NCBI RefSeq assembly: GCF_014646055.1
Contig: NZ_BMMS01000005.1
Span: 186,001 to 250,000 of the forward strand
Length of the DNA: 64,000 nucleotides
From: Wenjunlia tyrosinilytica
GTDB taxonomy: Bacteria; Actinomycetota; Actinomycetes; Streptomycetales; Streptomycetaceae
Reading direction: 5' to 3'
A program made the position numbers and the translations under genes. The notes beneath the pieces were generated by a model. It ran no database searches and had not been told where the DNA came from. It saw only the letters and a list, made by a program, of their open reading frames with translations. Of the stretch, positions 33,272-46,414 are shown piece by piece (within the stretch, counting starts at the first letter, position 1; each line of letters opens with the position of its first letter).

Positions 33272-33402
33272 CCGACCCCGGAAGGGGGGTGGGCGAAGCG
33301 GCTGTCGGTGACTGCCTCTAGCGTTCCGCTCATCGTCACGGCGAGAGCGGGATTCCCCGCTCGTCCGTGCTGAGTTCGTGCTGGTCGAGAGGCGGGGAGC
33401 CG

Positions 33403-34269
33403 GTGGGTTGGTTGACGGCGGGCGAGGGGTACGAAGTCGCCCTGGTGGAAGGGCGGGTGGCCGCGCGGGCCACCGTGGGACGTGCTGCGGGGCGGCAGTT
33501 GAAGTCGCTGCCGAAGGGGCTCAAGGACCACCCCGAGGTGGACCGGCTGCGCCGCCTGGCGCAGTGGCTGGACCGCCACGCGACGGCATGTGTGGCGCAG
33601 GTGGACTCCTGGATGGTGTCGTCCCTGCCCGTCCCGACGGAGCTGGTGGCGCGGGTCTGGCCGGACGAGGCCTGGCAGGCGGCGCTGCGCGACCTGGTGG
33701 TCGTCGGCGACGATCCCGACGAGGTGGGCTTCCTGCGCGACGCCACCGACGCCGGCGAACTGCGGGTGGTCAACCTCGACGGTGAGACGGTCCGGCTGTC
33801 CCCGTCCACGGTCACCCTCCCCCACCCGGTGCTCCTGCCGGACCTGGAGGACCTGCGGGAGTTCGCGGCCGAGCTGGGTGTGGTCCAGCGTGTCGAGCAG
33901 ATCCACCGGGCCACCTGGACCAGGCCCACCGAGCAGGCGCCGAACGCCACGCAGGTGTCGGACTTCTCCGGGGGCAGGTTCGCCTCGCGGTTCGGCCTGG
34001 CGGCCAGGGCCACCGCGCTGGGCTACCGCGTGTCGGGGGGCTACGCCACCTGCCAGGTGCGCGACGGGGGGCTGATCACCGAGGCGTCGGTGTGGATCGG
34101 CGAGCCGTACTGGGACGGCGACACCGAGACGGGGGCGCTGAGCTTCAGCGGCCAGGACGGGCGGTCGCTGAGGCTGAGCGAGGTCGGCCCGGTGGCGTGG
34201 TCGGAGGGGATGCGGATGGCCGCGGCGCTGTACGCCGGTCGGCAGGTCGAGGAAGGCAGGAGCGCATGA
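33403..34269 (+). CDS. DUF4132 domain protein
   Basis: This protein of about 288 aa has a C-terminal part (SGGRFASRFGLAARATALGY to VGPVAWSEGMRMAAALYAG) that fits the DUF4132 domain, whose families end in a Pro-Val-x-x-Ser-Glu element. The N-terminal half carries WPDEAWQAALRDLVV and a Leu/Glu-rich stretch without recognised motifs. No membrane segment is present. The GTG at 33403 is preferred over a GTG at 33367 that lacks any ribosome site. Its stop overlaps the next start (ATGA). E. coli YehI, also a DUF4132 protein, sits in the same type of locus, and that comparison guides the assignment. Its biochemical role is unknown. Confidence 0.7.
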   Translation: MGWLTAGEGYEVALVEGRVAARATVGRAAGRQLKSLPKGLKDHPEVDRLRRLAQWLDRHATACVAQVDSWMVSSLPVPTELVARVWPDEAWQAALRDLVVVGDDPDEVGFLRDATDAGELRVVNLDGETVRLSPSTVTLPHPVLLPDLEDLREFAAELGVVQRVEQIHRATWTRPTEQAPNATQVSDFSGGRFASRFGLAARATALGYRVSGGYATCQVRDGGLITEASVWIGEPYWDGDTETGALSFSGQDGRSLRLSEVGPVAWSEGMRMAAALYAGRQVEEGRSA

Positions 34270-37200
34270 GCGAGACCGTCGGCGAGGCCGAGCAGCTGCT
34301 GAAGGCGGGGGCGGTACTGCCGGTCGGGACGCAGGGCGCCGCAGACCGGGCGGTGCCGTTGACCGCCCGCGCCTACCGCCACCCCGGTGTCGAGGGACGG
34401 ACCGTGGTGCGGCTCGTCGCCGAGGAGTTGGGTGCGGCCGAGGACCTGGCCGCGGGCTTCCTCGGCCTGGAGCCCGCCGCGGAGCCCGCCGTGGTGGGCC
34501 TCGGCCGGCGCCAGGCGCTGGGCTTCCCGGAGTGGGTGCTGGTGCACCACCCCGAGGACGGCCACCACGCGCTGGCCGTGGTGCCGGAGCTGGAGCGCAC
34601 GGTCCGGCAGGCCAAGTCCAAGCCCAAGGCGGCCCTGGACGCCTACCAGGAGATCGCCGGCCGCCTGGCCGCCGCCGTACCGCACTTCCTGCCCACCTTC
34701 TACGAGCAGGCCGGGCGGACCTTCCTGGCCGTCGAGAACGCGGCGTACGCCTCGCAGATGTTCACCAGGGCCCGCAGGGCCGAGGCGGAGCACGGGCTGG
34801 CCATCGACGAGGAGCGGCTCGACGCGGTGTTCCTGGAGTTCGCCCTCGCCGGCGCGCTGCCGGTGAAGGTGCTGTCGGGGTACGCCAAGGAGCTGTCGGC
34901 ACGGGTCGCGGCGCCGGAGGCGTTCCGCCGGTTCCGCAGGCTGTGCGTGCGGCGCACGGCGGGCGGTCTGCAGCCGTCCGCGCAGATGGCCGCGGACCTG
35001 CGCCGCCTGGCCAAGGCCGCGGGGGCGGACGTGGAGGCGGAGGAGCGGGCGTACGTCGCGGAGCTGCTGGCCCTGCCCGCCACTCTTCGCGTGGCGACGG
35101 GCTGGTGGAAGGCCCACCGCCCGGCGCTGGTGGCCCTGGCCCGGCGGGAGCCCGCGAAGCGCGGCATGCTGCTGAACCTGATGCCCGGCGGCGGCGAGGA
35201 GGACATGCCGCGGCTGTGGCTGGAGCTGCTGGAGGAGTCGGGCGCAACCGCCGGGCTCTGCGACGGCGCGCTGCCCGCCGAGGAGCGCCCCGAGGACGGC
35301 ACCACGGGCTGGTTCGAGCGGTTCCTGGCGTTCCGGACCCCCGGGTGGCGGGGAATCACGAGGCTGCCCACGCTGTACCCGCTCGTCGAGCGGATGGCGG
35401 ACCGGCTGCGCGCCGAACTCGCCGAGTCCGGCCGCGCGCTGCCGATCGTGACCTACGACGTGGACCTGCTGGACCTGCTGCTGTCCCTGGACGTGCCGGT
35501 CGCCGATCCCGACAAGAACACCGGGCTGCGCCTGGAGCAATGGGCGCAGGGCGAGCAACAACGCGACCTGTGCGCGCTCGAGGCCGACCCCCGTTTCCGG
35601 CCCGCCTTCGAACGCGGAGCGGACGGGCTGTCGAACGACCGGGACGGGCTGCGGGCCATCCGGATGCTGGCCGCCTCCCCCGGTGGACGCCCGATGCTCG
35701 CCGAGTGGATGCGCGAGGTCGCGCGGCGCTCCCTCGATGTGGGCCTGCCGCAGCTGCCCGACGCCCTGCGGAAGCTGTCCTGGCTGCCGGGCGAGGCCCT
35801 GGTCCTGGCCGAGGACGAGGCCCGCGCCGCCGCCGGGACCGATCTGGCCCCGCTGCTCGCCCGCACGCTCAAGGCCGGCCTCTTCGACGAGCTGAGCTGG
35901 CCCGCCTGGGAGGACGCGGCCGCGGACCTCGTGCAGAAGAAGGACGTCGACGAGCTCATCGTCGCGGAGGCCTGGCCCCATCTGATCGTCGGCCGCCCCG
36001 CGCAGGCCCGGGTGATCGGCGCCGAGGGCACCGTGCTCACCCACGACCTGCGGATACCCGCCGGTGACAGCTGGGGCGACCCCGGCTTCCACTACGTGGA
36101 CGGAGAACTGCACGTCCACTGGAACTCCCGGGCGCACGACAACCGGCTGGTCGGGTACTGGCACACCCGTGCCGACCGCGTGCAGCCGGTCGAGGGCACC
36201 GGCAACACCCGCGGTACCCGCATGAACTGGTACCGCAACACGGGCCCGATCAGCCTTCCGCTGCCCGGCGGCGGCCGGACCACCGGCACCGCGGTGCTGC
36301 ACGCCGGGGACACGGCGCTGCCCGAGGAGCGGTCGGTGATCACCGACGGAACGTCGTACTGGGTGTGGACGTGGGACGGTTCCGACCACGAGAGCACCGG
36401 ATGGTACGAGTACGTCCCGGCCACCGGGGAGGTCGGGCGCAAGGGCATGCCGGGCTTCCTGGCCGACGCGCTGCGCGACGCCCCCGCGGGAAGCACGTTC
36501 CACGCGGGCTGGATGCTGCCCGCCCCGACGGCCGAGGCCTCCCCCGGTGGCTCTCCGCTGAACGGTCTGCTCGGCTGGAGGGCCGTGCAACTGCCCGACG
36601 GTTCACTGCGCGGCGAGGACCTGGCCGGACACACCGTCACCCTGCCGTCCGGGGCGGGACGGCCGTCGCGTGTCCTGCTCTTCCCCGGGGACGACCGGCC
36701 CCGGGCGGTGGTCCAGGGCAGTTACGACGTCAGCCTCGTCGACCCGGACGGTGTCGTCACCGCGGTTGCCAAGACGGACGACCCTCCGGGGACGTTCGGC
36801 GAGGGCACCTTGATCCTGCCGCCGCTGCGCTACTGGCACTGCCTCGAACCCCGGGACGTCCAGGGCTCCCTGGCCCTGCGCGCCATCAGCCACGACACCG
36901 CGGCGGGGCTGCTCAAGGCCGCCCATGCCCAGAGCGGGGAGGAACTGCCCGCCCTGGTCCGCGAGCTCCTGCCCGAGGTGGGCCATGACGCGCTGGTGGC
37001 GGGGATCGCCGCAGTGGTCCGGTTCGCCGCCGGGCAGCAGGCCACCCTGGACGCGGTGGCGGACCGGATCGACCAGGCGCTCGCGGGCGGGCACCACGAG
37101 GAGGGGCCGACCGGCCCCAGCGACAAGCTGCTCGCCACCGCCCTGAGCGGCCTCACCGGCTCCCGGCGCTACTGGTGGGGTGAGTCCCCCTCGGGGGTCT

Positions 37201-39170
37201 TCCGCCAGATCCGCTCGCTCGGCCAGGCGCTGGGCCACACCGACGAGCCCGCCACGGACACCCCAGCCGTCGCCCTCCACCTCGACGGGCCCGAGCTGGC
37301 CCACACCGAGCTGGAGTGGCAGCCGATGCTCGACCGGTGCGCGGCGGTGGCCTTTAGGGCCGCGGCGCCGACGACGGAGCAGGAGGACCGGGACGCCCTG
37401 CACGAACTCCTGCGGGAGATGGACGTGCTGGGCGCCGACGGTGTCCGCGAGCCCGCTCGCTGGCGGCGGTTCACCCTGCACGTCGACAAGAGCCGTCTGA
37501 CCGGGGCCGACGGGCAGTGGCGGGCCGGAAGCTGGTGCGGGCTGCTGCCGCTGGGCGGCGGGGCGTTCCTCGCCTGCGTGGACAGGGAGGGAGCCGAGGA
37601 CTCGGGCTGTGTGTTCACCGCGCTCTTCCACGACCCGGCCGGACGCTTCGAGGTGCCCGAGCCGTACACCGTCCGCGCCTCCTCGACGGTCGGGGAGAGC
37701 CGGGAGACGGGCTGGCTGGGGGCGTTCCTGACCGAGTTCGCCGCGCGCGGACCGGCGCCCTGGTTCCCGCAGGCCGCCGCGGAGTTCGCCCGGCTCACCG
37801 GGGTCACGGGGACTACGGCCCGGCTGGTGGTGGCCGGGATGCCGCGGGCCGACGCCTACGAGCGGAACTTCCTTCCCGCGCGGGCGCGCACCCTGCTGGG
37901 GGTGAAGGTCGCCGAGGCCGCCGTGGCCAGGGACGAGCTGCGCACGCTGAGCCATGAGGTCCGCCTCGCCGTCGTCGCCGCCCTCATGCCCGCGCAGCCC
38001 GCGCGGCTGTGGACGGAGGGTCCGGACGTGGCCGCTGCCGCGGAGGTCTGGACCAGAGCCGTGGGCAGGCGGGCCGCCGTACCCGAGGCGCTGCTCGCCG
38101 AGGCGGTCCGCGCCGTGAGGCCCGTCTTCTGGGCGCCGGCGCGTGCGCTGCCCGCCCTGCTCGACCCGGCCGCCGAGCCGCAGTTGAGCAAGGACCTCGC
38201 CTGGGCGGTCAAGGGCGACCGGGTGCACCCCGTCGACTCGGACGCCGAGGGGTTCACCGCGAGCACGCTGGTCGGCTCCGTCGCGACGACCGCGTGGCTC
38301 GCGCACCGGCTGCCCGCGGGCGACCCCCTGCGAGCCGCCCTGCCCGTGGCCCTGACCGCCGTGAGAGACCGGCTGGCCAACCCCGAGCTGATGCTCGACC
38401 TCGGCCGGTACGTCGGCCTTCCCGCGTTCCGGAAGGTGGCGGGTCCCCCGACCGAGGTCGGCGAGGGCTACGAGCGCTACGGTGCCGTCGTCATGGCCAC
38501 CCATGACGACCAGCCGGCGCCGGGAATCCGTACGGCGCTGCTGGACGAGGCCGGACAGGACCCCTATCTGCCCGCGCTGCGGGGAGTCGACCAGCAGCCG
38601 TTCCCGGCCGAGGTCGCCCTGCGCCTCGCCCGCGATCCCCGCTTCGAGGCGCTCCTCGCCGACCCGGGCGACCCGGTGGCGGGTGAGCGGGGCAAGGACG
38701 GCACCTGGTGGCCGCAGGACCCCACCCGGTCCGTGCCCGGCCTGGTCACCGCGGCGGCCAAGGAGTACGGCATCGGCGAGGACGCCGCCGCGCTCTACCT
38801 GGCGCTGCTCGCCATGCCGGACCCCAGCGACCGCAACACCGCGCGCTGGACGGGCTGGAAGCCCGCCCGGCTGAAGGCGGCGCGTGCCGAACTGGCCGGC
38901 ACCGAGCTGGTGGTCGAGGCCACCCGCACCCGGGCCGGGCGCTCGCTCTTCCTTCCCGGCGGCTGGACGGTGCAGCGGTCCCCGCACCTGCCACTGGAGC
39001 AGTGGAAGCTCTCCCTGCTGGGACTGGACGCCGCCGACGCCGCGCCGTTGGGGGTGATCGTGCCCCTGGAGCCCGCCGCCGACCTGTACCGCGGGGCCTG
39101 GCAGCGGGTGCTGGACGGTGACGGCCCCCGGTTCGAGGAGCTCAAGGTGAAGGGCGGCAGGCGCCGCTGA
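34266..39170 (+). CDS. Giant protein of the MoxR-VWA locus, function unknown
   Basis: This 1634-aa soluble protein starts in an ATGA overlap with the DUF4132 gene, behind an AGGAG site. Residues about 1-480 are helical and Ala/Leu/Arg-rich (for example PHFLPTFYEQAGRTFLAVE). A central part, about 590-900, is rich in aromatic and beta-prone residues (DGELHVHWNS, HTRADRVQPVEG, WVWTWDGSD), suggesting a beta domain. The last 700 residues are again mostly helical. No nucleotide-binding motif, signal peptide or membrane helix was found. In the E. coli yeh locus the comparable large protein is YehI. This one may be an adaptor or substrate-recognition scaffold for the AAA+ ATPase encoded next; that is inference. 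Confidence 0.75.
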   Translation: MSETVGEAEQLLKAGAVLPVGTQGAADRAVPLTARAYRHPGVEGRTVVRLVAEELGAAEDLAAGFLGLEPAAEPAVVGLGRRQALGFPEWVLVHHPEDGHHALAVVPELERTVRQAKSKPKAALDAYQEIAGRLAAAVPHFLPTFYEQAGRTFLAVENAAYASQMFTRARRAEAEHGLAIDEERLDAVFLEFALAGALPVKVLSGYAKELSARVAAPEAFRRFRRLCVRRTAGGLQPSAQMAADLRRLAKAAGADVEAEERAYVAELLALPATLRVATGWWKAHRPALVALARREPAKRGMLLNLMPGGGEEDMPRLWLELLEESGATAGLCDGALPAEERPEDGTTGWFERFLAFRTPGWRGITRLPTLYPLVERMADRLRAELAESGRALPIVTYDVDLLDLLLSLDVPVADPDKNTGLRLEQWAQGEQQRDLCALEADPRFRPAFERGADGLSNDRDGLRAIRMLAASPGGRPMLAEWMREVARRSLDVGLPQLPDALRKLSWLPGEALVLAEDEARAAAGTDLAPLLARTLKAGLFDELSWPAWEDAAADLVQKKDVDELIVAEAWPHLIVGRPAQARVIGAEGTVLTHDLRIPAGDSWGDPGFHYVDGELHVHWNSRAHDNRLVGYWHTRADRVQPVEGTGNTRGTRMNWYRNTGPISLPLPGGGRTTGTAVLHAGDTALPEERSVITDGTSYWVWTWDGSDHESTGWYEYVPATGEVGRKGMPGFLADALRDAPAGSTFHAGWMLPAPTAEASPGGSPLNGLLGWRAVQLPDGSLRGEDLAGHTVTLPSGAGRPSRVLLFPGDDRPRAVVQGSYDVSLVDPDGVVTAVAKTDDPPGTFGEGTLILPPLRYWHCLEPRDVQGSLALRAISHDTAAGLLKAAHAQSGEELPALVRELLPEVGHDALVAGIAAVVRFAAGQQATLDAVADRIDQALAGGHHEEGPTGPSDKLLATALSGLTGSRRYWWGESPSGVFRQIRSLGQALGHTDEPATDTPAVALHLDGPELAHTELEWQPMLDRCAAVAFRAAAPTTEQEDRDALHELLREMDVLGADGVREPARWRRFTLHVDKSRLTGADGQWRAGSWCGLLPLGGGAFLACVDREGAEDSGCVFTALFHDPAGRFEVPEPYTVRASSTVGESRETGWLGAFLTEFAARGPAPWFPQAAAEFARLTGVTGTTARLVVAGMPRADAYERNFLPARARTLLGVKVAEAAVARDELRTLSHEVRLAVVAALMPAQPARLWTEGPDVAAAAEVWTRAVGRRAAVPEALLAEAVRAVRPVFWAPARALPALLDPAAEPQLSKDLAWAVKGDRVHPVDSDAEGFTASTLVGSVATTAWLAHRLPAGDPLRAALPVALTAVRDRLANPELMLDLGRYVGLPAFRKVAGPPTEVGEGYERYGAVVMATHDDQPAPGIRTALLDEAGQDPYLPALRGVDQQPFPAEVALRLARDPRFEALLADPGDPVAGERGKDGTWWPQDPTRSVPGLVTAAAKEYGIGEDAAALYLALLAMPDPSDRNTARWTGWKPARLKAARAELAGTELVVEATRTRAGRSLFLPGGWTVQRSPHLPLEQWKLSLLGLDAADAAPLGVIVPLEPAADLYRGAWQRVLDGDGPRFEELKVKGGRRR

Positions 39171-39178
39171 ACCCGCTC

Positions 39179-39208
39179 GGGGGCGGGCGCGGTACCGTGC
39201 CCGCCCCC
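39179..39208. terminator. Hairpin between the giant gene and the MoxR gene
   Basis: GGGGGCGGGC (39179-39188) pairs perfectly with GCCCGCCCCC (39199-39208). The inner bases G-T, C-G, G-C and G-C can continue the stem around a TA tip. It starts 9 bp after the stop codon and would separate or attenuate transcription of the downstream MoxR-VWA-SWIM genes. Confidence 0.65.
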
Positions 39209-39250
39209 GGCGTGCGCACCATCCACCAGCCAGAACCCTCAGCCGGCCGC

Positions 39251-39286
39251 ATCAGCCCCATCAGCCCCATCAGCCCCATCAGACCC
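39251..39286. repeat. Tandem 9-bp repeat, 4 copies
   Basis: ATCAGCCCC is repeated three times (39251-39277), followed by ATCAGACCC. The array lies in the leader between the hairpin at 39179 and the MoxR gene start. Confidence 0.88.
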
Positions 39287-39348
39287 ATCGGGCAGCTGTG
39301 CCGGACAGGCAGCTGCATCGGAATCAGACAGATACGAGGAACCACTCC

Positions 39349-40521
39349 ATGTCCCTGACCGACCAGGTGTCGGCCCCCGCGCCCCGGCAGATACTGCCCG
39401 CCGAAGAGCGGTACGCGACCGAACTCGCCTTCCTGGCCGCCCACGACGAGGGCCCCCGTCCGCCCGGGTGGGCGCTCACCCCGCGCGCCGTGGTCACCTT
39501 CGTCTGCGGCAGCGGCGGCGAGACCCTGGAGCTGCCCGAGGAACGACGTGCCGAGGCGGGCGACCGGCCCACGCGCCTCGCGGTGGCACCCAAGTTCGTG
39601 GGTGAACGCGCCCTGGTGGAACGGTGCGTGGTCACCCTCGCTGGAGAGCGCGGCCTTCTGCTCGTGGGTGAGCCCGGCACCGCGAAGTCGATGCTCTCCG
39701 AACTCCTCGCCGCCGCCGTCTGCGGCACCAGCGCCCTGACCGTCCAGGGCACCGCGGGCACCACCGAGGACGCCTTCCGCTACGGCTGGAACTACGCCCT
39801 CCTGCTGGCCCAGGGGCCGAGCAGCCAGGCGCTGGTGGACTCCCCCGTGCTCACCGCCATGCGCAGCGGACGGGTGGCCAGGATCGAGGAGATCACCCGC
39901 TGCCTGCCCGAGGTGCAGGACGCCCTGGTGTCGATCCTTTCCGACCGGCGCGTGAGCGTGCCCGAACTCAGCGGCACCGCCGACGCCCTGGTCTCGGCCG
40001 CTCCCGGTTTCACGGTCATCGCCACGGCCAACCTGCGCGACCGGGGTGTGTCGGAGATGTCGGCCGCCCTCAAGCGGCGGTTCAACTTCGAGACCGTCCA
40101 GCCCATCGCCGACGCCGACGCGGAGACCGCCCTGATCCGCCGTCAGGCGAGCGCCGCCGTCGAGCGGGCCGGGGCCTCGTTCGGTGTGGACGACGCCGTG
40201 CTGGACGCGCTGGTCACCGTCTTCCGTGATCTGCGCTCGGGACGCTCCGCCGAGGGCTGGGACGTCGAGCGGCCGGGCACGGTGCTGTCCACCGCGGAGG
40301 CGGTGCAGGTCGCCGCGTCGCTCGGCGTGGCCGCCGCCTACCTGCCGTCCGGGGATGTGCTGGACCTCGTTCCCGGCCATCTGCTGGGTGTGGTCCGCAA
40401 GGACGACCCGGCCGACCACGGGCGGCTGCTGGGCTACTGGGACGGGCCGGTACGCCGTCGCGCCGAGGACGGCTCGGCGATGTGGCGCCGCCTGTGGGAC
40501 CTGCGCGGGACGCTGAATTGA
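39349..40521 (+). CDS. MoxR-type AAA+ ATPase (YehL-like)
   Basis: This 390-aa cytosolic AAA+ ATPase has Walker A GEPGTAKS (residues 107-114), the MoxR style in which Ala replaces the second Gly. Walker B is VARIEE (176-181) with the catalytic Glu, sensor 1 is TANL (about Asn228) and the arginine-finger region is LKRRF (241-245). The N-terminal 75 residues are an extra domain. MoxR ATPases act as hexameric chaperones with a VWA-domain partner, and that partner is encoded immediately downstream with a TTGA overlap. GAGGA 8 nt before the ATG supports the start. The closest functional parallel is YehL in the E. coli yeh locus. Confidence 0.9.
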   Translation: MSLTDQVSAPAPRQILPAEERYATELAFLAAHDEGPRPPGWALTPRAVVTFVCGSGGETLELPEERRAEAGDRPTRLAVAPKFVGERALVERCVVTLAGERGLLLVGEPGTAKSMLSELLAAAVCGTSALTVQGTAGTTEDAFRYGWNYALLLAQGPSSQALVDSPVLTAMRSGRVARIEEITRCLPEVQDALVSILSDRRVSVPELSGTADALVSAAPGFTVIATANLRDRGVSEMSAALKRRFNFETVQPIADADAETALIRRQASAAVERAGASFGVDDAVLDALVTVFRDLRSGRSAEGWDVERPGTVLSTAEAVQVAASLGVAAAYLPSGDVLDLVPGHLLGVVRKDDPADHGRLLGYWDGPVRRRAEDGSAMWRRLWDLRGTLN

Positions 40522-43500
40522 CCGGGCGTCGGGCGGCCGCTGCCGCCGAACCCGACAGTGAGCGGTCGGAGGCGGCCGTGCCGCCGAGCGCCGATCCCGG
40601 GGGCACCGGCCCCCGGAGCACCGATCCCCGGGCCGCCGTGGCCGATCTGGCATCCTCGCAGGAGCCCTACCTGCTCGGGGTGCGCCATCACAGCCCGGCG
40701 CTGGCCTGTGTCGTCCCGGCCCTGCTGGACGCCGCGGATGTCTCGGTGGTCTGCGTGGAACTGCCCGCCGACTTCCAGCACTGGCTGGTCCACCTGGGCG
40801 ACCCGGCGACCGTCGCACCGGTGGCTCTCGCGGGGGCGGGCGCGGACGGCGGGCTGGGCTTCTACCCGTTCGCGGACTTCTCCCCCGAACTCGCCGCCAT
40901 CCGCTGGGCGAGGGAACGGGGAGTCGAGGTCGTCGCGTGCGACCTGCCGCTCGACGACCCCGGCTGGTCCCTGACCGGCGGCGAGCACCGGAGTGAGCGG
41001 GGCGAGGCCCCGGCCGGGCCGTCGTTCGCCGACGCGCTGACCGCCGCGGGCACCGGCCGGGAGGGCGAGGACCTGTGGGACCGCTCCGTCGAGGTGCTGG
41101 CCCCCGGATGCCCGCCCGAGGCGGTCCGCCGGGCCGCCCTCGGCGTGGGCTGGGCCCTGCGCAAGGACAGCGCCGAGCGGGGCGGGATACCGGCCACGGA
41201 CCTCGCCCGCGAGGCGCACATGCGCCGGGTCATCGCCGAAGCCGCCTGCGGCGGACGGCGGGTGGCGGCGGTGATCGGAGCCTTCCACGCCCCGGCGCTG
41301 GCCGGGCCGGACACCCCCGAGGCTGTCGGCGCGGTGCCGGGACAGGCGGTCCCACGTGCGGTCCGCTCCACCGCCACCGCCGAGCCGGCCGCGCGTGGCG
41401 AATCCCCGGTGACCACGTCGCTCGTCCCCTACGCCTTCGACCTGCTCGACTCCCGCTCCGGCTATCCCGCGGGAATCCGCGACCCGCGGTGGCAGCAGGC
41501 GGTCCATGCGGCGGGCGGTGACCCCGAGCGGGTCCGGCAGGCCGCTGCCCGGGCGGTGACGGACCTGTGCCGACGGATGCGGTCGGACGGGCACACCGCG
41601 GGCACGGGCGAAGCGGCGGAGACGCTGCGGCTCGCCTGCGATCTGGCGACCCTGCGCGCCCTGCCCGCGCCCGGGCGGGGCGAGCTGCTGGAGGCGGTGA
41701 CCACCGTCCTGGGCCAGGGCGAGCCGCTCGGACGCGGACGGGCACTGGCCCGCGCGCTCCAGGCGGTTCTGGTCGGTTCCGACCGCGGCAGGATCGCTCC
41801 CGGGACACCGCGCTCCGGCCTCGGCCCGTCCGTCGAGGCCGAACTGGCCTCGCTGCGGCTGCCCTGCCCCGACTCCCCCGACCGGCGCGAGGTCCGCCTG
41901 GACCCGCTGCGCTCAGACCTGGACAGGCGCCGGGAGGTGCTGTTGCAGCGTCTGGCGGTCTGCGGCGTGGGCTACGGCGAGCGGACGGAGGTCGCCGGTA
42001 CCGGCGACGGCACGGCGCTCAGCACCCGGTGGCAGCTCGCCTGGACGCCCGCCGTACCGGCCCTGCTGGACCTGGCGGGTGTGCGCGGGGTGACCGCGGC
42101 ACAGGCCGCGGCGGGAAAGCTGAACGAGGTCGTCCGCCGCGAGCGCGCGGAGGGCGGCCCCACATGCGCCCAGCTCCTGGCGGGACTGCGTTCGGCCGCC
42201 GCCTGCGATCTGCCCGGCCCGGTGGCCGAACGGCTCGAGGAGGCCGCCACCGCACTGCCGTCGGCGGCCACGCTGTCCGAAGTCCTCGAAGCGGCGGACC
42301 TGTTGGAGGCGCTGCGCCGCGAGCACCTGCCCGGCACCACGCCCGCGACACGGCAGAGTGCGGCGGCGCTCGCGGACACCCTGCTGGAGTCCGCGGTCCG
42401 TTCCATCCCCGGAATGGCCGGGAGCGATCAGCCGCAGGACGCCGTCGCCCTGGTGGCGCTGGCCACCCGGGCCGGGGAGCATCACCTGGGACTGCGGCTC
42501 GACGACGCGCTGGCCGAGCTGGTGCGGACGGGCTCGCCGCTGATCCAGGGAGCCGCCCTGGCCGCGCGGGTCCTGCTGGACCTGGACGACTGCGAGGCGC
42601 TGGGCGCCAGGACCGCGGGATGGGTCGACACGGCGACCGGCCCCGAGAGCCGTGGCCGTCTGGCCAGGCACCTCACGGGCCTGCTGACGGCGGCCGGCCC
42701 CCTGCTGCAATCGGCTCCGGCGGCGCTCGACCCGCTGCTGGACCGCGTCGACGCCCTCACCGACCCGGCCTTCCTGGACCGCCTCCCCGCCCTGCGCGGC
42801 GGATTCGACACCCTGGCCCCGGCCGGGCGGGAGCGCCTGCTCCGCACCGTCTCCGAACGTCTGGGCGACCGCCTGGACCTGTCCTTGACCGCCTCCCCGG
42901 AGCTACTGGCCCTCTGGACGGCAGCGGACACGGCGGCGCTGACGGCCGTCGAGGCACTGGGCCTGCCGGTGCCGGGGCCGGAGAAGGCGCCGGAGCCGGG
43001 AGCCGCGACCGGGCCCGCATCCGTTCCTCCGGAGGCCGGGCCCGCATCCGTTCTGCCGGAGGCCGGTCGGCCGCAGGCCGGGCCCGGGGAACGGCCGGAG
43101 GCCGGGCACCCGGAAGGTGACTCGCGGGGGCGGCGGCTGGCGCCCGCCGATCGGTGGCGGTTGCTGCTCGGGCGGGAGAGCGAGCGGCTGCCGTCCGGAG
43201 CCCGGCGATACGCGCATGCCCTGGACGAGCTCTACGGGGCCGGACGAGGCGAGGGCGCCGGGGACTTCGGACACGGCGCGGACAACGGCGGCGGCCAGGA
43301 GTCGTCGTTCCCCACCGCCCGCGAGTGGGCCGAGGAGCTCGACTCCCTCTTCGGCACCGAGGTCCGCGAGGAGGTCTTGGCCCGCGCGGCCGACGCCGGG
43401 CGCACCGATGTGCTGGCCGAGATCGACCCCGCGTCGGTCCGCCCGTCCGTCGAGCTGCTGAGCTCGGTCCTCTCCTTGGCCGGCGGACTGCCGGAACAGC

Positions 43501-44252
43501 GACTGGCCCGGCTCCGCCCCCTCGTGCGCCGCCTGGTGGACGAGCTCACCAAGGAGCTGGCGACCCGGCTGCGACCCGCCCTCACCGGGCTGGCGACCCC
43601 CCGCCCGACCAGGCGCCCGGGAGGCGCGCTGGACCTGCCCCGGACGCTGAGGGCCAACCTGGCGCACACCCGCAGGTTCGAGGACGGCCGGACGGTCGTC
43701 GTTCCGGAACGGCCGGTGTTCCACACCCGTGCCCGCCGTGAGGCGGACTGGCGGCTCGTCCTCGTGGTGGACGTCTCGGCCTCGATGGAGGCGTCGGTGA
43801 TCTGGTCGGCGCTGACCGCCGCGGTCCTGGGCGCAGTGCCCACGCTCTCCACCCACTTCCTCACCTTCTCGACCGAGGTGATCGACCTGTCCGACCGGGT
43901 CTGCGATCCGCTCTCGCTCCTGCTCGAGGTGAGGGTCGGCGGCGGCACCCACATCGCCGCCGGTCTCGCCCACGCCAGGTCCCTGGTGACCGTGCCGAGC
44001 CGCACGATCGTCGTGGTCGTCAGCGACTTCGAGGAGGGGTACCCGCTCGGCCGCCTGCTGGGCGAGGTCCGCTCGCTGGCCGGTTCGGGCGTGCACCTGC
44101 TCGGCTGCGCCGCGCTGGACGACAGCGGCACGCCGCGCTACTCGGTGCCCGTCGCCCAGCAGCTCGTGGCGGCCGGGATGCCGGTCGCCGCGCTCAGTCC
44201 CCTCGCCCTCGCCCGCTGGGTGGGCGAACGCCTTCGCGGAGACTCCCGTTGA
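40518..44252 (+). CDS. DUF5682-VWA fusion protein
   Basis: This 1244-aa soluble protein has three parts. Residues about 45-790 form a DUF5682 region beginning LLGVRHHSPALACVVPALL, with a conserved RHHSP element. Residues about 815-880 are a Pro/Ala/Gly/Glu linker with repeats of GPASV and PEAG. The C-terminal 200 residues are a von Willebrand A domain with a complete MIDAS: DVSAS starting at Asp1085, Thr1144 in GGGTHIAAG, and Asp1170 in VVSDFEEG. In E. coli the two units are separate proteins, YehM and YehP. The TTG start overlaps the MoxR stop (TTGA); a GTG at 40578 with a good GGAGG site is a serious alternative. It is probably the metal-dependent adaptor of the MoxR ATPase. Confidence 0.85.
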   Translation: MTGRRAAAAAEPDSERSEAAVPPSADPGGTGPRSTDPRAAVADLASSQEPYLLGVRHHSPALACVVPALLDAADVSVVCVELPADFQHWLVHLGDPATVAPVALAGAGADGGLGFYPFADFSPELAAIRWARERGVEVVACDLPLDDPGWSLTGGEHRSERGEAPAGPSFADALTAAGTGREGEDLWDRSVEVLAPGCPPEAVRRAALGVGWALRKDSAERGGIPATDLAREAHMRRVIAEAACGGRRVAAVIGAFHAPALAGPDTPEAVGAVPGQAVPRAVRSTATAEPAARGESPVTTSLVPYAFDLLDSRSGYPAGIRDPRWQQAVHAAGGDPERVRQAAARAVTDLCRRMRSDGHTAGTGEAAETLRLACDLATLRALPAPGRGELLEAVTTVLGQGEPLGRGRALARALQAVLVGSDRGRIAPGTPRSGLGPSVEAELASLRLPCPDSPDRREVRLDPLRSDLDRRREVLLQRLAVCGVGYGERTEVAGTGDGTALSTRWQLAWTPAVPALLDLAGVRGVTAAQAAAGKLNEVVRRERAEGGPTCAQLLAGLRSAAACDLPGPVAERLEEAATALPSAATLSEVLEAADLLEALRREHLPGTTPATRQSAAALADTLLESAVRSIPGMAGSDQPQDAVALVALATRAGEHHLGLRLDDALAELVRTGSPLIQGAALAARVLLDLDDCEALGARTAGWVDTATGPESRGRLARHLTGLLTAAGPLLQSAPAALDPLLDRVDALTDPAFLDRLPALRGGFDTLAPAGRERLLRTVSERLGDRLDLSLTASPELLALWTAADTAALTAVEALGLPVPGPEKAPEPGAATGPASVPPEAGPASVLPEAGRPQAGPGERPEAGHPEGDSRGRRLAPADRWRLLLGRESERLPSGARRYAHALDELYGAGRGEGAGDFGHGADNGGGQESSFPTAREWAEELDSLFGTEVREEVLARAADAGRTDVLAEIDPASVRPSVELLSSVLSLAGGLPEQRLARLRPLVRRLVDELTKELATRLRPALTGLATPRPTRRPGGALDLPRTLRANLAHTRRFEDGRTVVVPERPVFHTRARREADWRLVLVVDVSASMEASVIWSALTAAVLGAVPTLSTHFLTFSTEVIDLSDRVCDPLSLLLEVRVGGGTHIAAGLAHARSLVTVPSRTIVVVVSDFEEGYPLGRLLGEVRSLAGSGVHLLGCAALDDSGTPRYSVPVAQQLVAAGMPVAALSPLALARWVGERLRGDSR

Positions 44253-46414
44253 CCTCTTCCTCCTCTTCCTCGCAGCTGCCCCCGGTGGCACCGCAGGTGC
44301 TCGCGGCCGCCGTCGAGGAGCTCACCGCACGGCTGCGCAAGCGGCTCGACGCGGCGATCGAACGTGTTCCCGACCTGTCCATGACGACCGAGGGCGGTGC
44401 CCTGGCCATCGCGTTCGCCGAGGACGCGGTGGTCACCCTGGCGCCGGGGCCGAACGGCGCGGTCTCCTCGCCGGACGAGGCCCGGTGCGGTTGCCTTCTG
44501 GCGCCCCGCTGCCTGCACCGGGCCGCCGCCCTCGGCGCCTGCCCGATCGCCGACCCGGATCTCCTCGAGCCCCAAGGCGAAGACCCAGGAGCCGCCGGAT
44601 GGGACAGCCCCGCGCCACTCGTTTCCGAAGCGGCCGCCGCGTCCGGATCCCGTGGACCAGGAACGCCTGGACCAGGAACGCCTGAATCCGAGGCAGGACC
44701 CCGGGTCGCCCCACCCACCGCCCCGGAAGCGGCGACCACTGGATCGGCGGCTTCCGCTGGTTCGGCAGCCTGCGCTTCCCGGGCTCCCGGATCCCCGGCC
44801 CATGGCCCCACGGCCCCGGGATCCCAAGTCGCGCAGACGTCACCCGGACCGGGCTCCGCCGCCGACGCGTCGTCCGCTCCCGCCACGGCCACCGTCCCCT
44901 CCGCCGCCCGCAGGGCCGCGGCCTGCGGGCTGTGGGCGGCCGCCGCCGCCGTGCTGGTCGCGGGCGCCCCGGGCGCCGGGGCGGTGCTCCAGGCCGAACT
45001 CCTGCGCGCCGCCCACACGGCGCGGCTCGCGGGACTCCTGCGCGCCGAGGCCTCGGCACTCCGGGTCGTCCGCGGACTGCGTGCCGCACGGGACCGGCAT
45101 GACGGCCACCGGCTCGCCGACCTGGTGGCGGCGCTGCATGAGCTGCTGCTGACCACGGCCAGGCTCCGCGCCGCCGATCCCGACCCCTCGCTGATCGGCA
45201 CCGCCCGCCGCGCCTACCAGCCCGGCGGCGCCCTGAAGGTCTACGGCATCTGCCGGGAGCCGGTCATCAGTGCCACCGGCTACGGCGGCGTTGTCACGCA
45301 TCTCGTCACGGAGGACGGCCGCCGGTTCACGGTGTCCGACGTCAAGCCCGGGGGGCCCGCCCGCGCACGCGGGGCCGCCACGGCACCCGTCGCCCTCTGC
45401 ACGGCGCTCGACCATTCCCAGCTCGCCCGCGGGGGCATGCTCGTCTCGGGTTCCACGGTCTCGCCGGACGGCCGTCTCGGCGCGGGCCGCGCGGTCCGCG
45501 CCAATCCCGTGCCCGGCCTGCCGTGGTCGTCGGGGCCGCTCGCCTCGCTCTTCGGCCGTCCTCTGGCCGAAGCGGTCGGCGCCCGCCTGGCGGGAGCGGG
45601 CGGCGGTGACCCGGAGCGGGCCGAGACGGAGCGTCAGGAACCCCTCGGCTGCGACCTCGTGGTCGTCGGACCCGCAGGGGACCACGTCCTCGCCCATGAG
45701 CTGACGCCGGACGCGCCCCTGATCAGGCTCGTTCCCGCCTCCTCGCATCCCGACCTGGCGCACACCGGGAATCTGCGCCTGCTCGCCTCCCGGCCCGGGA
45801 TCCGGATCCGCGTGGTCGGACGCCCCGATCTCGACCGCACCGCGACCCTGCGCCCGCTGGCCGTGGGGCCGGTGCCCGGTGAGGAGGTGACGCTGCGCCT
45901 GCCCGAGGGCTGGCTGGGCCGCGCCGACCTCGGCTACGACCGGCTCCAGGGCTCGCATCTTCCGCCGCGTGACGCGGAGCCGGTGCACCAGCCACCCATC
46001 GGTCCGGGGCCGGACCCCCTGGCCGACTCACCGCTGTGGCGGGTGCGCCGGCTCGTGGAACTCGCCGTCACGGGCGGGCGTCGTGCGGTCGCGGAGGCCT
46101 CGAGGGGCGGGACCGCCTCCGGCGAGGGCACGGCGCTGCGCGGCGCCGGGTTCCGTTCCTCCGCGGTACTGGCGGGTGCCTTCACGGCCGAGGCCGACCG
46201 CCGCGGGCGCGATGCCTTCGGGCGGCTCACCGACCCCGATCCCGGCGACTACGCCAGGGCGTGGCTGGCCGTCACGACCCATCTCGCGGAGGCCGAACGA
46301 GCGCTCGTCCGCGCTTCCTGGACATCTTCCGCGACAGCTCTCGGGAGGGCTTCCGGAACACCCGGACCGGCCCTCGCCGCGACCTCCTGGGCCACGGAAG
46401 GAGTGGGCCGCTGA
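44249..46414 (+). CDS. SWIM zinc-finger protein (YehQ-like)
   Basis: This 721-aa protein has the SWIM zinc motif CxCx5CxH at Cys80-Cys82-Cys88-His90 (RCGCLLAPRCLH), which implies zinc-dependent DNA or protein binding. A Ser/Pro/Gly/Ala-rich disordered segment (about 110-215) follows, then a Leu/Ala-rich helical part and a beta-rich C-terminal half with no known motif. A TTG start overlapping the previous stop (TTGA) has GGAGA 7 nt upstream; no better start exists before the zinc motif. It is the last gene of the locus; the HdeD-like gene begins 137 bp later. YehQ in E. coli is the equivalent SWIM protein. Confidence 0.82.
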   Translation: MTSSSSSSQLPPVAPQVLAAAVEELTARLRKRLDAAIERVPDLSMTTEGGALAIAFAEDAVVTLAPGPNGAVSSPDEARCGCLLAPRCLHRAAALGACPIADPDLLEPQGEDPGAAGWDSPAPLVSEAAAASGSRGPGTPGPGTPESEAGPRVAPPTAPEAATTGSAASAGSAACASRAPGSPAHGPTAPGSQVAQTSPGPGSAADASSAPATATVPSAARRAAACGLWAAAAAVLVAGAPGAGAVLQAELLRAAHTARLAGLLRAEASALRVVRGLRAARDRHDGHRLADLVAALHELLLTTARLRAADPDPSLIGTARRAYQPGGALKVYGICREPVISATGYGGVVTHLVTEDGRRFTVSDVKPGGPARARGAATAPVALCTALDHSQLARGGMLVSGSTVSPDGRLGAGRAVRANPVPGLPWSSGPLASLFGRPLAEAVGARLAGAGGGDPERAETERQEPLGCDLVVVGPAGDHVLAHELTPDAPLIRLVPASSHPDLAHTGNLRLLASRPGIRIRVVGRPDLDRTATLRPLAVGPVPGEEVTLRLPEGWLGRADLGYDRLQGSHLPPRDAEPVHQPPIGPGPDPLADSPLWRVRRLVELAVTGGRRAVAEASRGGTASGEGTALRGAGFRSSAVLAGAFTAEADRRGRDAFGRLTDPDPGDYARAWLAVTTHLAEAERALVRASWTSSATALGRASGTPGPALAATSWATEGVGR

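Follow-up and report, generated by a model that had tools for sequence, protein, structure and literature searches.

The window analysed here, 64,000 nucleotides of Wenjunlia tyrosinilytica DNA (contig NZ_BMMS01000005.1, positions 186,001 to 250,000), contains at 33403-46414 a block of five plus-strand genes, g1 to g5, all with open reading frames. The block is a new variant of the Yeh/YehL kind of gene set: a MoxR AAA+ ATPase (g3) is accompanied by a DUF4132 protein (g1), a large protein without Pfam family (g2), a fusion of DUF5682 with a VWA domain (g4) and a SWIM-type protein (g5). We consider it probable that g1-g5 encode a remodelling complex of the MoxR-VWA kind that is induced by DNA damage; its DUF5682 part may hold a TIKI-like hydrolase site. 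A damage promoter of the RecA-independent, PafBC type is predicted in front of g1, and similar motifs precede other Yeh-type layouts; this common link appears to be new, as we did not find it stated in the open-licence literature searched. We know of no function assigned to the YehL branch of MoxR ATPases. The promoter on several layouts, together with published SOS and DdrO links of relatives, gives this branch a directly testable role.

The promoter site in the window, TGTCGGTGACTGCCTCTAGCGT, has one mismatch to TTGTCRGTG-N8-TANNNT and is the sole match to the loose form of the pattern on both strands of the 64 kb. The mycobacterial RecA-independent damage-promoter consensus is given as tTGTCRgtg-8nt-TannnT (PMC5656591). 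For comparison, genome contigs were scanned with g4; out of 179 related stretches, the 80 best form our locus set. Fetched loci are sorted into layouts A, B, C and D, which are labels of convenience; type C is the g1-g5 block and is represented in the promoter counts by 77 loci (76 plus the window). Gene starts come from our own gene calling, and distances to them are therefore approximate. In 71 of the 77 loci, TGTC[AG]G-N9-11-TA-N3-T is present no more than 350 nt from g1, where its frequency in the remaining sequence of these loci predicts 0.07; stricter forms of the motif are found at g1 in 41. With up to two mismatches allowed, a site precedes g1 in 72/77 loci and appears in 2/372 random windows, and a simple word count finds TGTCAGTG upstream of g1 in 39 loci and in no control segment. 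All 71 sites have a single spacing and carry 52 different 8-nt spacers, which suggests that the match is maintained by selection and does not reflect recent common descent. Upstream of g3, none of the 77 regions has a site with two mismatches or fewer, and the best match in the g2-g3 gap of the window has five. We considered and rejected regulation of the type C block by a LexA-type system, GAAC-N4-GTTC being present upstream of g1 in only 2/77 loci. A stress role had been held possible in a first-pass annotation of this locus, made from the sequence alone; it now gains specific support as a DNA-damage role, because the damage promoter precedes g1.

The regulator of such a promoter is encoded in the same genome. 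PafBC acts at the RecA-independent damage promoter (PMC8223512) and does so when bound to single-stranded DNA (PMC11804915). The window's genome encodes PafC (HTH_PafC 5.3e-31, plus WYL), and an adjoining WYL-WCX gene is the PafB candidate. The 22-base damage pattern is matched exactly at 28 sites of the genome (L181-L208), the reversed pattern at none. A called gene starts at most 450 nt downstream of 25 of them (none for L185, L205 and L207), and four lie inside a called gene (L185, L188, L197 and L207). Exact matches precede recA, uvrB, pcrA, polA, ruvC, radA, ung and ogt. Of the 25 downstream genes 20 were scanned, and profiles identify nine repair proteins: UvrB, DNA polymerase I, RuvC, PcrA, uracil-DNA glycosylase, RadA, RecA, O6-methylguanine-DNA methyltransferase and an AlkZ-like glycosylase. 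AddB-like and RecD2-like proteins give weak profile matches; Cas3-HD, ribosomal S6, YjbR, NUDIX and DEAD helicase genes also follow exact sites, and for four of the 20 genes the library searched returned no family. Presumably ssb (behind S6), DinG, TerD and ribonucleotide reductase are also among the downstream genes, by our own reading. Altogether, these matches suggest a PafBC-type regulon in this Streptomycetaceae genome. It resembles the PafBC/RecA-NDp regulon of mycobacteria (PMC5656591, PMC8223512, PMC11804915) in consensus and spacing, in the presence of PafC and in including recA. PMC9380542 leaves open whether a damage response independent of RecA/LexA exists in Streptomyces, and the 28 exact matches are relevant to that point.

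The protein types of the block recall the E. coli locus that runs, in MG1655, yehI, yehK, yehL, yehM, yehP, yehQ. This kinship, proposed in the first-pass annotation, is borne out by blastp for g3 and g4 and by profile comparison for g1 and g5. g3 shares 46% identity with YehL (1e-95). YehM matches the first two thirds of g4 (26%, 1e-25) and YehP its end (37%, 1e-61); since a single chain matches first one and then the other, g4 is a natural YehM-YehP fusion. Usable blastp matches to MG1655 are absent for g1 and g5 (g5-YehQ E 0.17), and hhalign relates g1 to YehI (5e-7, four-sequence YehI profile) and g5 to YehQ (7e-6, three-sequence YehQ profile). Neither blastp nor hhalign finds a counterpart of g2 in the E. 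coli yeh locus. The idea that g2 might be a hidden half of YehI was rejected, hhalign giving no match of g2 to YehI, DUF5691, g1, g4, g5 or the type D proteins. The two loci share the order DUF4132, MoxR, DUF5682, VWA, SWIM and identical P-loop letters. In type C, however, YehM and YehP are fused, YehI is shrunk to a short DUF4132 protein, the 1634-aa g2 is added, a YehK-like gene is not seen, and a PafBC-type motif is carried instead of a LexA box. Relatives of YehI, YehM, YehP and YehQ thus surround g3 in YehL-type order, and the ATPase combines intact Walker A and B motifs with a partner that has an intact metal ion-dependent adhesion site (MIDAS).

In a midpoint-rooted tree of Yeh-type sequences only, with no outside MoxR, 14 type C sequences join E. 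coli YehL and the MoxR of locus L042 with support 1.0, and types B and D fall on the opposite side (0.98). The P-loops follow the same division, with GEPGTAKS in types A and C, GVPGTAKT in B and GDPGTGKS in D. RavA-ViaA and NorQ-NorD resemble g3-g4 in pairing a MoxR ATPase with a VWA partner; to our knowledge, neither has a DUF5682, SWIM or DUF4132 partner. Within MoxR, RavA and NorQ are placed in subfamilies other than that of YehL (PMC3893208).

Type A follows the E. coli order (L042 and, in part, L053), and the YehI of L042 combines WGR with DUF4132. Type B has SWIM and DUF5691 genes beside YehL-YehM-YehP; it comprises L036, from the window's own genome, L045-L052 and L054-L056, with SWIM or DUF5691 confirmed by Pfam in L036, L052 and L054 only and assigned by clustering in the other loci. 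It shares the MoxR-DUF5682-VWA core with type C and differs from it in having DUF5691 in place of DUF4132 and g2, unfused YehM and YehP, and a separate MoxR clade. In type D (L043:4659-12021 and L044:8253-15570), a protein of unknown family is followed by VWA, MoxR and a DUF5682-like protein, the last out of Pfam reach and matched to g4 by profile (E 1.2e-13). In core type B loci (L036, L045, L048 and L049), a SWIM-DUF5691 operon is divergent from a MoxR-DUF5682-VWA operon, with damage-motif copies on both sides.

The damage motif precedes the first gene of L042 (type A) and of L043 and L044 (type D), and lies 52 nt upstream of an orphan gene in L146, described below. It stands at the SWIM gene in all six Streptomycetaceae type B loci, with two mismatches in L036; in L047 it falls inside the SWIM gene as called, the start of which is probably miscalled. 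The divergent MoxR operon of type B has a one-mismatch copy in all four loci looked at. In L053, which is type A-like, the sequence breaks off ahead of the first gene.

Relatives in other phyla have been linked to DNA damage by their regulation. The E. coli stretch is headed by yehF, annotated with the WGR family; yehF appears in an SOS gene table with values up to 1.14, presumably in log2 units (PMC11002266), molR is in an SOS list (PMC3978071), and MolR is described as a LexA regulon member in work cited in PMC8533742. The best LexA-like site of this stretch lies 27 nt before yehF and matches 13/20 positions; alone it proves little, because a site of equal score stands at L004:15902. In Deinococcus radiodurans, depletion of DdrO strongly raises the expression of a DUF4132 operon and of a WGR gene (PMC8533742). 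The accessible text of a Salmonella SOS study (PMC8072944) has no occurrence of yeh or molR, and that of an M. tuberculosis damage-response study (PMC8151990) none of MoxR, SWIM, VWA or DUF4132.

Most of the gene assignments made at first pass stand. The five genes are consecutive, and three of the four junctions are 4-bp overlaps (g1/g2, ATGA at 34266; g3/g4, TTGA at 40518; g4/g5, TTGA at 44249). The identities proposed for g1, g2 and g3 hold, as do the GEPGTAKS, VARIEE and complete MIDAS motifs (DxSxS in 80/81 g4 sequences, window included; sequences below 75% of the window protein's length or with at most 30% identity were dropped). One point is corrected: DUF5682 and VWA are fused in one gene, in which Pfam places DUF5682 at aa 66-985 (5.7e-206) and then VWA_CoxE at aa 1014-1235. 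For g5, the SWIM ligand pattern is fully conserved and the Pfam SWIM match stays under the cut-off (0.11). g2 has no Pfam match at E 1, and neither g2 nor g4 has a sequence relative of solved structure at that threshold. PHROGs matches to g3 and g4 indicate no function beyond the ATPase, and the 64-kb window holds no tRNA and no Rfam family. New with respect to the first pass are the promoter, the possible TIKI-like site in DUF5682 and, in g2, helical repeats with a probable beta-propeller. Coordinates are collected in Table 1.

Table 1 Features of the g1-g5 locus (window coordinates).
Feature	Position	Strand	Description
Predicted RecA-independent (PafBC-type) damage promoter	33303..33324	+	TGTCGGTG-N8-TAGCGT; 100 nt upstream of g1
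g1	33403..34269	+	288 aa; DUF4132 (Pfam PF13569 1.5e-29); corresponds to the DUF4132 portion of E. coli YehI
g2	34266..39170	+	1634 aa; no Pfam family; specific to type C
g2 aa 106-563	34581..35954	+	Helical repeats (AlphaFold2 model)
g2 aa 565-836	35958..36773	+	Probable beta-propeller (strand pattern of model)
g2-g3 gap	39171..39348	+	178 bp
g3	39349..40521	+	390 aa; MoxR AAA+ ATPase, YehL type; AAA_5 5.6e-38
g3 Walker A	39667..39690	+	GEPGTAKS; kept in 78/79 sequences (window included); identical letters in E. coli YehL
g3 Walker B region	39874..39891	+	VARIEE; pattern in 79/79 sequences
g4	40518..44252	+	1244 aa; DUF5682 and CoxE-type VWA (YehM-YehP fusion)
g4 aa 50-262	40665..41303	+	Alpha/beta domain with TIKI/TraB-like residues (alignments and model strand order)
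g4 VWA domain	43557..44222	+	VWA_CoxE 1.1e-63
g4 MIDAS D1085-x-S1087-x-S1089	43770..43784	+	
g4 MIDAS T1144	43947..43949	+	
g4 MIDAS D1170	44025..44027	+	
g5	44249..46414	+	721 aa; SWIM-type, YehQ-like; alternative start 44297 (705 aa)
g5 SWIM ligands	44486..44518	+	C80-x-C82-x5-C88-x-H90; CxCx5CxH in 77/77 g5 sequences

Related stretches come from genera including Streptomyces, Kitasatospora, Nonomuraea, Streptosporangium, Micromonospora, Catellatospora and Dactylosporangium. The order g1-g2-g3-g4-g5 is kept in 75 of the 80 loci, the remaining five (L069, L070, L088, L094 and L107) being cut by contig ends; among the 75, L073 and L114 have a partial end gene and L135 a short g2. This survey supports the earlier proposal that the five neighbours form one functional unit, as does a natural fusion of g1-like and g2-like sequences in L146. 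The 4-bp overlaps recur at g1/g2 (58/76), g3/g4 (36/78), g4/g5 (48/78) and g2/g3 (15/74). Across 76 loci, the genes adjoining g1 represent 55 families, and the same holds on the g5 side; from this wide variation of the flanks we conclude that the five genes travel together as a self-contained module. Pfam finds DUF5682 in 17 of 198 actinobacterial genomes, with at least two matches in 7/8 genomes of the window's family. g2 is present in six of the 198, the same six that have the fused g4, and adjoins g4 each time.

Structural models were built from alignments filtered for identity and length, which kept 70/80 loci for g4 and 69/75 for g2. For the g4 model (aa 45-1244), the mean predicted local distance difference test score (pLDDT) is 75.5 and the predicted template modelling score 0.54. 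Its VWA domain matches a human VWA domain (VIA Z 17.5, 3.1 Å over 160 residues), and NorQD and Rea1-MIDAS chains are in its Foldseek list (E 0.002-0.03). At the other end of the protein, the N-terminal domain of DUF5682 is rather probably TIKI-like, judging from its residue pattern and model. The first 215 modelled residues are alpha/beta, with R56-H57-H58 after the first strand, E81 close to where the second one ends, and H257 behind the last; D142 and R231-E232 complete a TIKI/TraB-like set. A His after strand 1, a Glu at strand 2, and an Arg and a His near the last strand are thus all in place. The pattern resembles that described for the TIKI family in PMC6254334. Of 101 DUF5682 sequences from layouts A, B and C, among them E. 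coli YehM, 99 contain (V/I/P)RHH(S/G/A)P, and the remaining two are incomplete at the start. Among 71 type C g4 proteins, R231, E232 and H257 are invariant and E81 is conserved in at least 90%. Compared with a profile of nine TraB proteins, DUF5682 gives a weak hhalign match (E 0.0014) that aligns the last motif alone; seven unrelated profiles score more poorly (E 0.039 to 0.73).

For g2, AlphaFold2 models residues 1-1200 with a mean pLDDT of 88, as a long helical region followed by strands. The best VIA match is a chain of the Get3-Get4-Get5 complex (Z 12.1, 3.3 Å over 141 residues, model residues 103-248). Helical-repeat proteins appear in the VIA list for residues ~100-400, which may be merely a common arrangement. 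The strand region is probably a beta-propeller: Foldseek returns a dozen or so propeller chains (prob 0.8-0.99, E 0.011 or worse, no query range), Vps18 being the only match titled as such. The Get4, LGI1, BBS1, Hsv2, WIPI3 and PLL2 chains have helical-repeat or propeller folds. The propeller is probable and not proven, because the Foldseek E value is never below 0.01 and query ranges are missing. The orphan gene L146:6933-11183 encodes a 1416-aa protein that fuses a g1-like stretch (2e-12) to both g2 ends (2.8e-131), so that g1 and g2 may be regarded as two pieces of what is otherwise a single chain. The 20 kb fetched around it contain no further gene matching g1-g5 or Yeh proteins.

It is possible to assemble these parts into a mechanism. 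Sequence analysis supplies its gene content, the inheritance as a block, the intact ATPase, MIDAS and SWIM motifs, the promoter with its likely regulon, PafC and the kinship to the yeh locus. Induction by damage, assembly of a complex, binding and hydrolysis of a client and the nature of the target are inferred, as are target recognition by SWIM and DUF4132 and remodelling by MoxR-VWA, both proposed at first pass. Once activated by single-stranded DNA, PafBC would direct RNA polymerase to the site at 33303-33324. The MoxR protein g3 would form an ATPase ring, and the VWA domain of g4 would grip the client through its metal site. g2, together with g1 (DUF4132) and g5 (SWIM), would form the scaffold and guide the machine to damaged DNA or the proteins on it. 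As a possible TIKI/TraB-like hydrolase, the N-terminal domain of DUF5682 might cut or otherwise process the client. By analogy with eukaryotic Cdc48/p97 and its protease partners, one could extend the idea to Yeh-type operons at large: they would strip proteins from damaged DNA, with SWIM, DUF4132 and WGR finding the lesion, MoxR-VWA pulling the blocking protein and the TIKI-like DUF5682 domain cutting it, and their regulators (LexA, DdrO and PafBC) would have been acquired independently across phyla. We regard this broad extension as a long shot.

Several observations weigh against a damage-induced complex with a hydrolase site. In S. venezuelae, a first search reportedly failed to detect conservation of the M. 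smegmatis PafBC motif (PMC9380542). Five of the 77 type C loci have no site within two mismatches, and in the six type B loci outside Streptomycetaceae (L050-L052 and L054-L056) the best matches at the first gene have 2 to 5 mismatches. In the window's genome, 11 of the 20 scanned downstream genes are not clear repair proteins; as cas3, S6, NUDIX and YjbR genes follow the motif too, the damage promoter leaves a repair role unproven. The Deinococcus DUF4132 operon is not upregulated in irradiated irrE cells (PMC8533742), which is in line with DdrO control but offers no damage phenotype. The case for a TIKI-type domain is weak: hhalign gives the TraB match a probability of 17%, and a TIKI-type fold is not among the PDB rows listed by VIA and Foldseek, although these are filled by VWA and long helical chains and so say nothing against it. 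DUF5682 does not match erythromycin esterases, another TIKI-type family (E 0.18-0.39), a comparison that is insensitive because TraB also fails against them (E 0.26). We also count on this side that the open-licence literature searched yielded no mention of DUF5682; DUF4132 appears there in three papers, and two or more yeh gene names in three.

The strongest rival is an anti-phage or conflict system, which we judge unlikely. The mobile operon would sense infection or invading DNA, damage induction would prime it, and DUF5682 would be the effector. The mobility of the block and its varied neighbours agree with such a role, and so do the Cas3-HD gene under the same promoter in the window's genome and a 36-residue g2 probe that matches 40/101 Streptomycetaceae genomes, a count that may include orphan g2-like genes. 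In addition, MoxR-vWA pairs are the core of proposed ternary conflict systems, two classes of which (beta-propeller and FtsH) often have a GXXXTAKS P-loop, as in GEPGTAKS, next to a vWA partner (Kaur et al. 2020, PMC7159879). The third component of one system in that paper has tetratricopeptide repeat and beta-propeller regions, similar to the modelled helical repeats and probable propeller of g2 (Foldseek E values as given above). In contrast to the beta-propeller class, g4 has no propeller behind its VWA domain, the match to which reaches aa 1235 of 1244, and the word SWIM is not found in the main text of the paper (PMC7159879). PADLOC has no match for g1-g5, bar a chance-level one for g3 (0.038), and none at 1e-5 for the nine flanking genes in the window; the bpMoxR match, at 20.7 bits, is under the 27-bit cut-off. 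The missing PADLOC matches weaken the conflict role raised at first pass, which the mobility of the block still favours. The gene maps also show no extra gene in the block, few loci excepted, and a DUF5682 gene of some type is present in 98 of the 101 Streptomycetaceae genomes sampled (all types pooled), which suits a housekeeping role for the family.

A damage-induced remodelling complex also has to be set against a general stress or quality-control machine, which would have a genuine promoter motif and no direct role in DNA repair. The NUDIX, YjbR and ribosomal S6 genes behind sites in the same genome speak for this reading. It accounts less well for the motif on several Yeh-type layouts and for the published DNA-damage control of the E. 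coli and Deinococcus relatives (PMC8533742, PMC11002266, PMC3978071), and we find it improbable.

A chaperone that inserts a metal centre or cofactor into an enzyme encoded elsewhere, in the style of CoxD-CoxE, RavA-ViaA or NorQ-NorD, is very improbable: the g4 VWA belongs to the CoxE family, NorQD chains are among its best Foldseek matches, and E. coli molR is described as essential for molybdate use (a title cited in PMC8533742), but the flanks vary from locus to locus and hold no constant gene for a client metalloenzyme, a promoter of the DNA-damage type would be unexpected, and moeA and moeB are not differentially expressed on DdrO depletion (PMC8533742).

A few features of individual loci are recorded here. 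Short direct repeats, with CATCAGCCC-like units, were spotted by eye in the g2-g3 gap of the window. L042 also encodes, next to its type A locus and in divergent orientation, a second DUF4132 protein, which contains DUF7737 as well (L042:2579-4867). In Nonomuraea jabiensis, an IS605-type transposase (TnpB-like) gene lies between g4 and g5 (L066:13649-14869). Two Streptomyces loci carry a second, distant MoxR-like gene, with 25-27% identity to g3, about 3-4 kb downstream of g5 (L118:19604-20851 and L129:18372-19634).

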